From: Guyparkeria hydrothermalis
GTDB taxonomy: Bacteria; Pseudomonadota; Gammaproteobacteria; Halothiobacillales; Halothiobacillaceae
DNA length: 64,000 nucleotides
Assembly (NCBI RefSeq): GCF_023555385.1
Contig: NZ_JAJSED010000001.1
Location: forward strand, 1,488,001-1,552,000
Direction: 5' to 3'
The position numbers and the translations under genes were made by a program. Position 1 is the stretch's first letter. Each line of letters begins with the position of its first letter. The notes under the pieces were generated by a model, which saw only the letters and a program-made list of their open reading frames with translations, was not told where the DNA came from and did no database searches. Below are positions 60,996 through 64,000 of the stretch, one piece after another.

Positions 60996-61150
60996 CGTCA
61001 AAGCACGCTCCGGATTTAAATAGGGTTTTCCGCATATTTTCCGGTAAAGTGGCCTTAGAGAGCCTATGCCCGACTACTGCCCCGAGTGCCGCTTAACAGC
61101 GTGAACACTGCTGTGCTGCCTTGCTCGTCCACCGGATCCGAACACTTTCG

Positions 61151-63202
61151 ATGTCAGGTTTTACCTCACTGCCTCGTTCCTTCATCGCACTGCTCATCGG
61201 CATCGCTAGTAGCACCGCCCTCGGGGCAACCGCCTCCACACAGGCAGCACCAACATCCGCCACCTCCGAAGCGGACGCTCTGTGGCAGCAGGTCGAACGT
61301 GTTTATGGCGCGCTGGATGCCGACACCCTGAGCCACAAGCCGTGGCAGGCAGGCATCACACGCCTGTTCGACGACACGCCCTGCACGGCACCCGCACCGG
61401 AAAGGCTCGAAGCGGCCGCACACCGATCAACAGCTGATCGCCACGAGGCTGACCCAGGCCTGGCGCTGAATGCCTATGCCAGTTCGGGGTCCACCGCAGC
61501 CGAACCCTCGGAGCGGACCGATGGTTATGTGGAAGTGTCGTGGGACGTGCTCAAGGGAGGGCTTCTCGAATCCCGACACGAGGCGGAGCAGGCGCGACTC
61601 CGCGCGAGGCTCAGCGAAATACTCGGCGACATCAACGGCGAACGACGCGAACTCCGCTGCCTCCGCGGTCTGGTCCACCAGCGTTTCCTGTCCGACCGGC
61701 TGCGCTGGCTGACGCTGAAATACGACCTTATGCGGCAAGCCCATCAGGTCGAACGTCGTGGCTATTTCCAGGGCTGGGCACACCTTGATGAACTGATGGT
61801 CAGCGAGTCGGACCTTGTGCGCTTGCAAAGGGAGATGGAAACCAGTCACCGGGTGCTGGCCCTCGGCCATCCGGGATCGCCCCAATCTCCCCGGAACTTT
61901 CCTCTCGTCGACGTCGACCTGCAGGCGATACTGACCGCCATTCAGAACGACCAGCGCCTGGACGACCTTCGGCAAATCCAGCAATCCCTGGCCGGAGAGA
62001 GCGACAGGAGTTATCAAAACCGCCTGCGCCTGTTCGTGCGCCAGAACCTCGACCCGGATGTAAGACGCGACGTCTCGGTCGGAGCCCGATTCAGCATGCC
62101 CCTGGCGATGGGCGCCACAGCCCGGCGAGCAGCTCTGCGACACGAGCAGGAGGCCATCAGCGAGCGGGCAACACTGCAACGCTGGGAACGAGCAACATCA
62201 GCCCAAAGTGCCTACCTCGACTTTCAGGAACAGCTCGACAAGACAATCCGCCAGCACTACCGAGTGGGGCGAGCCTGGGAGAGACTTCGCCGGTCCATCA
62301 CCAGCCAGCGGCTCGGCCCACAGGAGGCAGAGATTCCCGTGGCCGTCACCCGTGCCCGCGCACTGGCCGACGCCAGGCTGGAAATGCTCGCCGCCCAAGA
62401 GGTGCTGTACCGGCGCCTGTTCGAGGTATTCCAGGCCGCCGGGGTACCAGTCCACGCCGCAGCACTGAAACCGGTTCACCTCCCCGGCACGACCGACCGG
62501 CGCCGCCTTGGAAGCCGCCTCATTTACGTATGGTCGGACTCGCTGAACCGGCTTCCCAACGAGCTTCTGGTGGACTTCCTGGTAGCGAAAGGAGTTCATC
62601 GAGCCGCGGTATCCGGTGGCGTGGGCGCGGACACCCGAAAACTCCGCGACCTCTACCTCCTGGCAGAAGAACAGGGCATCACGGTGTCGGTTTTGCGGGG
62701 CAGCCCGGAGTGGGCACTGCCCTCGGAGCATGAGCGCATCCTGCCGATGCTGCGACGTGACGCTGACCTGACCGGCAGAATCCATCTCGACATCGAACCG
62801 CATTCGCTGCCGGAATACGATGCGGATTCGCAGCGCGTTCTGTTGGGCTACCTCACGTTGATCGAACGGCTTCGCGCGACATCAGGCGCGGACACCCACA
62901 TCGCCGTCAGCGTCCCGACTCACTGGCCCGAGGCCATTTACGAGCAACTGACGCCACTAATCGATGAGGTGGTGGTCATGGCGTACGGGGTGACCGACCA
63001 CGAAAAACTCAGCGACCGCTTGAGCAATGCGTTGGCGACACTGCCCCCCTCGAAAACACGAATTGCCCTGCGCCCCTCCGACTTCCGCGACGAGTGGCAA
63101 CTCGAGCAATTCATTGAAGCGCTGGCAGCAGAGACCGGCATTACCCGATTCGCGATCCATGATCTCGACACCTACATGGGCCTGGGCGCTCAAACAAAAT
63201 GA
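61151..63202 (+). CDS. TolC-like outer membrane protein fused to a C-terminal TIM-barrel domain
   Basis: 683 aa with a Sec signal peptide (cleavage near ALGA, residue 26). Residues 100-430 look like an outer membrane efflux protein. Two repeated strand-helix units, YVEVSWDVLKGGLLESRHEA (126-145) and VSVGARFSMPLAMGATARRAA (308-328), begin long coiled helices, as in TolC. Residues 455-680 form a separate alternating beta/alpha pattern: IYVWSDSL, AAVSGG, TVSVLRGSPEW, IHLDIEP (D547, E549), HIAVSVPTHW, EVVVMAYG (607-613), RIALRPSDF, RFAIHDLDTY. That order of eight strands suggests a TIM barrel. DIE and MAYG recall GH18-type hydrolases, but this is not proven. It overlaps the adaptor gene (ATGA). 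Base composition looks less GC-rich than the rest. Confidence 0.75.
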   Translation: MSGFTSLPRSFIALLIGIASSTALGATASTQAAPTSATSEADALWQQVERVYGALDADTLSHKPWQAGITRLFDDTPCTAPAPERLEAAAHRSTADRHEADPGLALNAYASSGSTAAEPSERTDGYVEVSWDVLKGGLLESRHEAEQARLRARLSEILGDINGERRELRCLRGLVHQRFLSDRLRWLTLKYDLMRQAHQVERRGYFQGWAHLDELMVSESDLVRLQREMETSHRVLALGHPGSPQSPRNFPLVDVDLQAILTAIQNDQRLDDLRQIQQSLAGESDRSYQNRLRLFVRQNLDPDVRRDVSVGARFSMPLAMGATARRAALRHEQEAISERATLQRWERATSAQSAYLDFQEQLDKTIRQHYRVGRAWERLRRSITSQRLGPQEAEIPVAVTRARALADARLEMLAAQEVLYRRLFEVFQAAGVPVHAAALKPVHLPGTTDRRRLGSRLIYVWSDSLNRLPNELLVDFLVAKGVHRAAVSGGVGADTRKLRDLYLLAEEQGITVSVLRGSPEWALPSEHERILPMLRRDADLTGRIHLDIEPHSLPEYDADSQRVLLGYLTLIERLRATSGADTHIAVSVPTHWPEAIYEQLTPLIDEVVVMAYGVTDHEKLSDRLSNALATLPPSKTRIALRPSDFRDEWQLEQFIEALAAETGITRFAIHDLDTYMGLGAQTK

Positions 63203-64000
63203 AATTGAGAAACCGACGCAGCTACCTGTCTACGGCGCCAGACAGCCCGCCCCCCAAGGCGAATGGGCCGCGCATCACCCACTACATTTACCTGCTCTTG
63301 CTCCTCGGTGTGCTGGGGTACGTTGGCTATATCGCATGGCAGCGGCTGATGTTCATCGAAGCCAGGGGACAGGTCGAGGTGGAGCGGATTACGGTCAGCG
63401 CCAGCCGAGGCGGGAGAATCAGCCAGCTGCCTATCAGCGACGGCGAGCGCGTTCGCGCAGGAGAGTTGCTCGCCCGCATCGCCCCTCCTCAGGAATGCCA
63501 TGAGGAGAAAGACACCTACCAGCTGGACGAGCTACGCCTGGAGACATCGCTGACCGCCAGCGAGGTCGCTCTTCTGTCGGAACGACTCGCGACAATGCGA
63601 GCCACTTTGCTCGAACAAAATCGCCTGCGCCGCGCGCTGGAGATCGACACACGACTGGACAATCGCACTCGAGAGCTCAGTGACGCCATCGCATCGACCC
63701 AAGACGAGCTTGCCCGAAAACAAGCTCGTCTTGGGTTGCAGCAAGACCGGCTGGCACAGCTCGAACAACAACTCGCCAAACAACCACCGCCCCCCGATTG
63801 CCAACCGGAAATCATCGCGGCCCCAGTCGATGGGCGCATCCACCGTGTGGCGCGCAAGAACGCTGAAGTGGCGACGCGCGCGGAGCCTATTTTGACCCTC
63901 GTCCCCGATTCGCCGAAGGTCCGGATTAACGCCGTGCTACCCAACGAGGCCCTGGATCACCTGATGGTGGGTCAGACGGTTGCGATCACCTTCCCCGATG
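63199..64000 (+). CDS. HlyD-type membrane-fusion (adaptor) protein, cut by window edge
   Basis: The first 267 residues are visible. One N-terminal membrane helix (about 28-47), then a lipoyl half (VSASRGGRISQLPISDGERVRAGELLARI, 66-94), a long coiled-coil hairpin (about 105-193), the second lipoyl half (APVDGRIHRVARKNAEVATRAEPILTLVP, 208-236) and a beta-barrel start. Such adaptors link an inner-membrane pump or synthase to a TolC-like channel; Alg44 of alginate systems has the same periplasmic plan. Cys100 and Cys201 sit at the two junctions of hairpin and lipoyl halves and could form a disulfide. A 16-bp perfect inverted repeat lies in the hairpin-coding part. The reading frame stays open to base 64000. 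Confidence 0.85.
   Translation, partial: MKLRNRRSYLSTAPDSPPPKANGPRITHYIYLLLLLGVLGYVGYIAWQRLMFIEARGQVEVERITVSASRGGRISQLPISDGERVRAGELLARIAPPQECHEEKDTYQLDELRLETSLTASEVALLSERLATMRATLLEQNRLRRALEIDTRLDNRTRELSDAIASTQDELARKQARLGLQQDRLAQLEQQLAKQPPPPDCQPEIIAAPVDGRIHRVARKNAEVATRAEPILTLVPDSPKVRINAVLPNEALDHLMVGQTVAITFPD
63697..63736. repeat. 16-bp perfect inverted repeat inside the adaptor gene
   Basis: ACCCAAGACGAGCTTG (63697-63712) is the exact reverse complement of CAAGCTCGTCTTGGGT (63721-63736), with an 8-base spacer. It encodes the descending coiled-coil segment around TQDELARKQARLGL. The transcript would carry a very stable hairpin inside the coding region. Confidence 0.9.

Follow-up and report, generated by a model that had tools for sequence, protein, structure and literature searches.

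The right-hand end of the window (the whole 64,000-nucleotide stretch of Guyparkeria hydrothermalis DNA that was analysed) holds the beginning of a four-gene operon, here called A-B-C-D, that continues beyond it (Table 1). The frame of gene A is open from an ATG at 61151 to a TGA at 63202, with an alternative in-frame start, TTG, at 61121, and its product begins with a hydrophobic, signal-type helix (residues 9-24 in the predicted model). A preliminary description of this DNA, made from the sequence alone, had proposed just such a single frame with a signal peptide, overlapping an HlyD adaptor gene by four bases, and both proposals hold. Further along, B and C overlap by 4 bases and C and D by 8. 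Beyond D lie a DsrE-like gene, Ppx/GppA and an FhaC/FhaB-type pair. The latter, downstream of the operon (L009:12672-20000), is a pair for two-partner secretion, in which the transporter is of the FhaC type and the FhaB-type protein is very large.

Table 1. Features of the A-B-C-D operon, in window positions except for genes C and D (L009 position + 57000 = window position)
Feature	Position	Strand	Description	Basis
Gene A	61151..63202	+	683 aa; TolC-type outer-membrane channel fused to GH18-like barrel	ORF, predicted structure, Foldseek
Predicted signal peptide of A	61151..61225	+	about residues 1-25, without lipobox cysteine	sequence and model helix; cleavage inferred
TolC-like part of A	61397..62440	+	residues 83-430, two structural repeats	model, Foldseek, OEP matches among relatives
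GH18-like eight-strand barrel of A	62513..63190	+	residues 455-680	model, Foldseek, profile match to 10yv
D547-I548-E549 of A	62789..62797	+	end of strand 4; candidate catalytic D-x-E pair	conservation in relatives
M610-A-Y612-G of A	62978..62989	+	on strand 6	M and Y conserved in 70/71 relatives
ATGA overlap joining A and B	63199..63202	+	4 bases; B starts with ATG at 63199	
Gene B	63199..64000, runs 188 bases beyond window	+	HlyD-type periplasmic adaptor, 329 aa	HlyD_3 8.6e-17
Gene C	G000:C1:1552185-1553582 (L009:7185-8582), outside window		465 aa; TackOD1 and GGDEF-like domain	TackOD1 5e-58; GGDEF-like 1.3e-10
Gene D	1553575-1554882, outside window		435 aa; family-2 glycosyltransferase, PgaC/NodC-like	

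The window's A has zero family matches in Pfam and NCBIfam. An AlphaFold2 model made with 71 relatives, of the monomer only, reached a mean pLDDT of 89.8 and a pTM of 0.81 (pLDDT 75 with five relatives). In this model, about residues 83-430 adopt the TolC fold, made of two helix-strand-strand-helix-helix repeats: H83-100, E104-111, E124-132, H138-206 and H212-238 in the first and H268-285, E291-299, E308-315, H322-388 and H392-430 in the second. The top Foldseek matches in the PDB are all of the TolC/OprM type (TolC, ST50, OprN, VceC, CusC and OprM; best E 6.5e-12), bearing out the two TolC-like repeats that had been read from the sequence. In Pfam, OEP (PF02321) is matched by 23 of the 71 relatives of A (best 3.3e-21) and not by the window's A. 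The fold of residues 83-430 is thus the one common to TolC/OEP channels (PF02321), to which A adds some 230 C-terminal residues that form a putative enzyme domain.

This C-terminal part (455-680) is predicted to be an eight-strand beta/alpha barrel, with strands at 455-460, 484-488, 511-516, 543-546, 583-589, 606-610, 636-640 and 666-669. Strand 4 is followed by D547 and E549, and strand 6 carries M610 and Y612, an arrangement shared with GH18-type enzymes. DIE (547-549) and MAYG (610-613) are exactly where the preliminary description had placed them, and model and Foldseek agree with the eight-strand barrel that it proposed for residues 455-683, with E549 after strand 4. The PDB neighbours of the barrel in Foldseek include PgaB (1.8e-5), a GH18 endo-beta-N-acetylglucosaminidase, GH20 and GH191; the endo-beta-N-acetylglucosaminidase was matched as its inactive mutant D187A-E189A, which has the same D-x-E spacing as A. 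In the five-sequence model, the barrel also matched a fungal GH18 (4ac1). By phmmer, residues 483-602 of A (in its 693-aa form) match 10yv, “Putative GH97 from Cellulomonas fimi” (2.8e-4), and a five-member profile of A matched this C. fimi putative glycosidase with an E of 1.5e-5. A profile comparison (HH) between the barrel and PgaB of a congener found no relation (0.2% probability), the PgaB profile being shallow.

The domain is called GH18-like rather than a member of GH18 because the full signature, DxxDxDxE, is absent from A, where G542 and H545 replace two of the D residues. The Pfam GH18 family is weakly matched by 7 of the 71 relatives (best 5.4e-6), and among the scores listed no member reaches the cut-off, the relatives all staying below 29.6 bits and the window's A having no match. 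This incomplete signature and the unreached cut-off are compatible with a barrel that is not an enzyme at all, but a polymer-binding or gating domain that retains the chain at the mouth of the tunnel and does not cleave it. So is a Methylococcaceae A found by the profile search (L068:735-2744), whose barrel lacks the D-x-E and M-x-Y residues while the domain and the operon have been kept. However, almost every relative has retained D547, E549, M610 and Y612 at an overall identity of only 15-30%, with D547 and E549 present in 70 of the 71 aligned, and pure binding would not need the exact D-x-E pair. The conservation of D and E among the profile-search matches is inflated, since the probe contained HLDxEPH, but D-x-E is also kept in 14/14 A proteins (the window's included) that were found only via their neighbouring TackOD1 gene and hence independently of the motif. 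Several of these lack the exact probe sequence and have HLDLEVEQ, NLDLEPNQ or HFDIEPQ instead. From sequence comparison, the barrel motif is not a chance pattern, and a non-enzymatic barrel is considered unlikely. Hydrolytic activity, the preferred reading, remains an inference from the predicted fold and the conserved residues. At L118:7899-8684 and L133:2229-3095, the GH18-like barrel occurs by itself, with no channel part.

A was not found on plasmids by tblastn, and a single-sequence search of genome contigs with A gave no match. A profile search of the contigs did succeed, finding 130 relatives, with 80 loci kept. These are in Gamma- and Betaproteobacteria, Hydrogenothermaceae, Nitrospirae, Desulfobacterales and Planctomycetota, and mostly in Bacteroidota (for example Crocinitomix and Chryseobacterium). 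Genomes of the class were also searched for TackOD1 and the surroundings of the matches fetched, which yielded the same A-B-C-D order in other gammaproteobacteria. Before further TackOD1-found genomes were added, the gene orders were A-B-C-D at 67 loci, C-D-A-B at three and C-D-B without A at six, the rest being partial or having extra copies; with the additions, 72 distinct loci, spread over Pseudomonadota, Bacteroidota and other phyla, hold all of A, B, C and D. One version of A (L044:9933-12443) has an additional N-terminal AMIN domain (5.1e-13).

Pairwise distances were compared between the two halves of A, B, C and D. Their correlations are 0.84-0.93, while shuffled labels give no more than 0.20, and the four genes thus travel together, with shared descent of the hosts contributing to the correlation. 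A member of the Desulfurellaceae (L104) encodes channel and hydrolase in two different genes within the same operon, an arrangement that speaks for a functional link between them. Rather than being a local oddity, the channel-hydrolase fusion is ancient and spans several phyla. No additional gene family recurs beside the operon beyond lineage-local synteny.

A sister operon, C-D-B without the fused A, is found at L042, L045, L046, L049, L052, L054, L155, L157, L159-L161 and L166. With so many such operons, it follows that a TolC-hydrolase is not required throughout the wider family. At L046, a GH16 enzyme follows B, which points to a glucan or galactan there and argues that this branch, at least, makes another polymer.

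The preliminary description had expected A to have a dedicated HlyD partner, a glycosyltransferase to lie to the right of the window and a c-di-GMP or PilZ protein to be encoded downstream. B and D fulfil the first two expectations. In place of the third stands C, with the zinc domain TackOD1 and a GGDEF-like domain that lacks the catalytic motif. The function of the TackOD1 domain has been called obscure (PMC5847659). The GGDEF catalytic motif is present in 0/97 C proteins, ruling out C as an active diguanylate cyclase. The inhibitory RxxD site (R and D at the usual spacing) is kept in 68 of the 97, including the window's C. PelD is a degenerate GGDEF receptor, and C resembles it in its degenerate GGDEF-like domain with RxxD often kept; there are no c-di-GMP binding data for C, and sensing is inferred. 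The C proteins of Chryseobacterium and Paenimyroides are only about 320 aa long, shorter by about the length of the GGDEF-like part.

An RLS/RLT motif is a feature of TolC-binding adaptors (PMC3391258), and at the aligned position of the hairpin tip it was found in 1 of 102 B proteins. The match to it in the window's B, RTRELSDAIAST, is not conserved and is attributed to chance. Since B is without a conserved RLS/RLT motif, contact between A and B would be of another kind.

TolC and HlyD proteins are familiar chiefly from efflux and type I secretion. Among NCBIfam families, B is indeed best matched by a type I HlyD, if well under the cut-off. The operon might thus export a small molecule, peptide or glycolipid, with the glycosyltransferase and the barrel decorating or trimming the cargo. 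However, no lineage has an ABC, RND or MFS pump as a recurrent neighbour of the operon, and D, besides GKNE, DDGS and DADS, carries the processive QRxRW motif. Together with the polysaccharide operon, pgaABCD, that congeners hold at the same site, this makes export of a small cargo very improbable.

In the window genome, A-B-C-D sits between phosphoketolase and DsrE-Ppx/GppA. Across the genus, this site contains A-B-C-D in one genome, pgaABCD in three and nothing in five. In the five (L198-L202), phosphoketolase and DsrE-Ppx are adjacent, about 1.1 kb apart, while about 7.5 kb separates them in the three (L195-L197). PgaA, PgaB, PgaC and PgaD all pass the NCBIfam cut-offs in L196, as do the members tested in L195 and L197, PgaA and PgaD. 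A PgaB-type glycosidase domain is confined to L195-L197 among 11 genomes of the genus and is absent from the window genome; no genome with both A-B-C-D and pgaABCD was found in the genus. The phosphoketolase/DsrE-Ppx site (window 60996-64000; L195, L196 and L197 compared with L198-L202) is one at which exopolysaccharide operons are exchanged.

Homology to the empty site stops at about the phosphoketolase stop. GC content is 58-65% in the operon and 64-68% in its surroundings, and A was not found in the ten congeners and sixteen other family members examined. Since the site holds pgaABCD or nothing in congeners, A was not found in relatives and the GC content is lower, the operon was most probably acquired, at a site where relatives have another exopolysaccharide operon. 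Both the lower GC content and acquisition by transfer had been suggested earlier from the sequence, and site occupancy now adds to the case for the latter.

The swap with pgaABCD is the strongest context evidence for function. It could also mean that the operon makes PNAG itself via a different export route, having replaced pgaABCD in the window genome. This would suit the shared site, the lack of any genus genome found with both operons, the best NCBIfam match of D, which is PgaC_IcaA (2e-46), and the PgaB glycosidase among the fold neighbours of the barrel. However, D scores 158.7 bits against a cut-off of 422.3, and the operon has no deacetylase, PgaD or PgaA, in a genome without the PgaB-type glycosidase domain. 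Cleavage of in situ PNAG by PgaB needs an active deacetylase (PMC5933820). PNAG as the product is accordingly doubtful.

The reading preferred here, and held to be likely, is that A-B-C-D is a self-contained synthase-dependent exopolysaccharide machine that has its TolC-type channel and GH18-like hydrolase in one protein. It is of the general synthase-dependent kind, with a processive family-2 glycosyltransferase (QxxRW), a pore and a degrading enzyme together in one operon, as judged from motifs and predicted folds, the activities being inferred. The preliminary description would have been refuted by the lack of a barrel, the lack of a TolC fold or downstream genes unrelated to export, and none of the three came true. 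Against the preferred reading stand the absence of biochemical data, the incomplete signature, the negative profile comparison with PgaB, the loss of residues in L068, the C-D-B operons without A, the GH16 enzyme at L046 and the missing RLS/RLT motif.

In the proposed mechanism, D would polymerise the sugar in the inner membrane and thread the chain across that membrane, B would span the periplasm as an HlyD-type bridge, and A would form a TolC-like trimeric outer-membrane tunnel through which the polymer exits, although only the monomer has been predicted. The C-terminus of TolC is periplasmic, and the GH18-like barrels would therefore lie outside the tunnel wall, in the periplasm beside it, three per trimer. 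There they may cut polymer that is overlong or leaks from the conduit, the job of the separate AlgL, PelA, BcsZ and PgaB elsewhere. With the barrels in this position, clearing of leaked polymer fits better than trimming inside the tunnel. C would be a regulatory or assembly subunit whose GGDEF-like domain is unable to make c-di-GMP and may sense it via RxxD. Enzymes that use a D-x-E pair in the manner of GH18 typically act on N-acetylhexosamine polymers, and D comes closest to PgaC/NodC, so the best guess by analogy is a polymer containing N-acetylhexosamine. AlgL has been shown to clear alginate from the periplasm, in a study which also states that every synthase-dependent operon encodes an enzyme that can degrade the polymer (PMC8829089).

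Among known systems, pgaABCD is likewise a four-gene operon with a family-2 synthase, an outer-membrane pore and a TIM-barrel glycosidase, found at the same site in congeners. However, PgaA is a TPR beta-barrel porin, PgaB is a separate deacetylase-glycosidase and there is no HlyD or TackOD1 protein, whereas the pore of A-B-C-D is TolC-type and fused to the hydrolase. In cellulose secretion, the porin BcsC is of the TPR rather than the TolC type, and BcsZ has a cellulase in place of a GH18-like barrel. The closest system to A in fusion logic is BcsZC, a hydrolase-porin fusion in the cellulose operons of Zymomonas (PMC7112194). Channel-hydrolase fusion thus has one precedent, and the earlier statement that no such fusion is known was too strong.

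The XcsAB-TolC route proposed for cyanobacterial cellulose, which is experimentally unvalidated, comes closest in its parts and shares a synthase, an HlyD-like adaptor, a TolC-type channel and a hydrolase (XcsC) with A-B-C-D. Unlike in A-B-C-D, the parts are not in one operon, TolC being encoded elsewhere, the synthase has PilZ and XcsC is a separate protein (PMC12430437). The alginate machinery (Alg8-Alg44-AlgK-AlgE-AlgL) shares a synthase, an HlyD-like adaptor part (Alg44), a pore and a degrading enzyme that clears the periplasm (PMC8829089). Here, in contrast, B has no PilZ, there is no TPR protein and the enzyme is fused to the channel instead of free; the alginate pore is not TolC-type.

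No description of the A-B-C-D operon was found in the literature searched, which mostly did not cover subscription papers, so that an earlier description cannot be excluded. The operon is coherent, widespread and real, a new form of synthase-dependent polysaccharide secretion. On balance, if with less assurance than the exopolysaccharide reading as such, it can be taken as an undescribed multi-phylum polysaccharide machine that combines a family-2 glycosyltransferase, an HlyD adaptor, a TackOD1/degenerate-GGDEF regulator and a TolC tunnel with three hydrolases, and that swaps with pgaABCD at one site.

With synthase, adaptor and dedicated channel in one operon, it becomes possible to ask whether a TolC-type channel can serve as the exit for a synthase-made polysaccharide. 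Since channel and hydrolase are moreover a single chain, the question can be tested by single-gene deletions in cultured bacteria. The TackOD1 domain gains a first cellular setting, and the operon suggests that Bacteroidota and Pseudomonadota have a new biofilm polymer.
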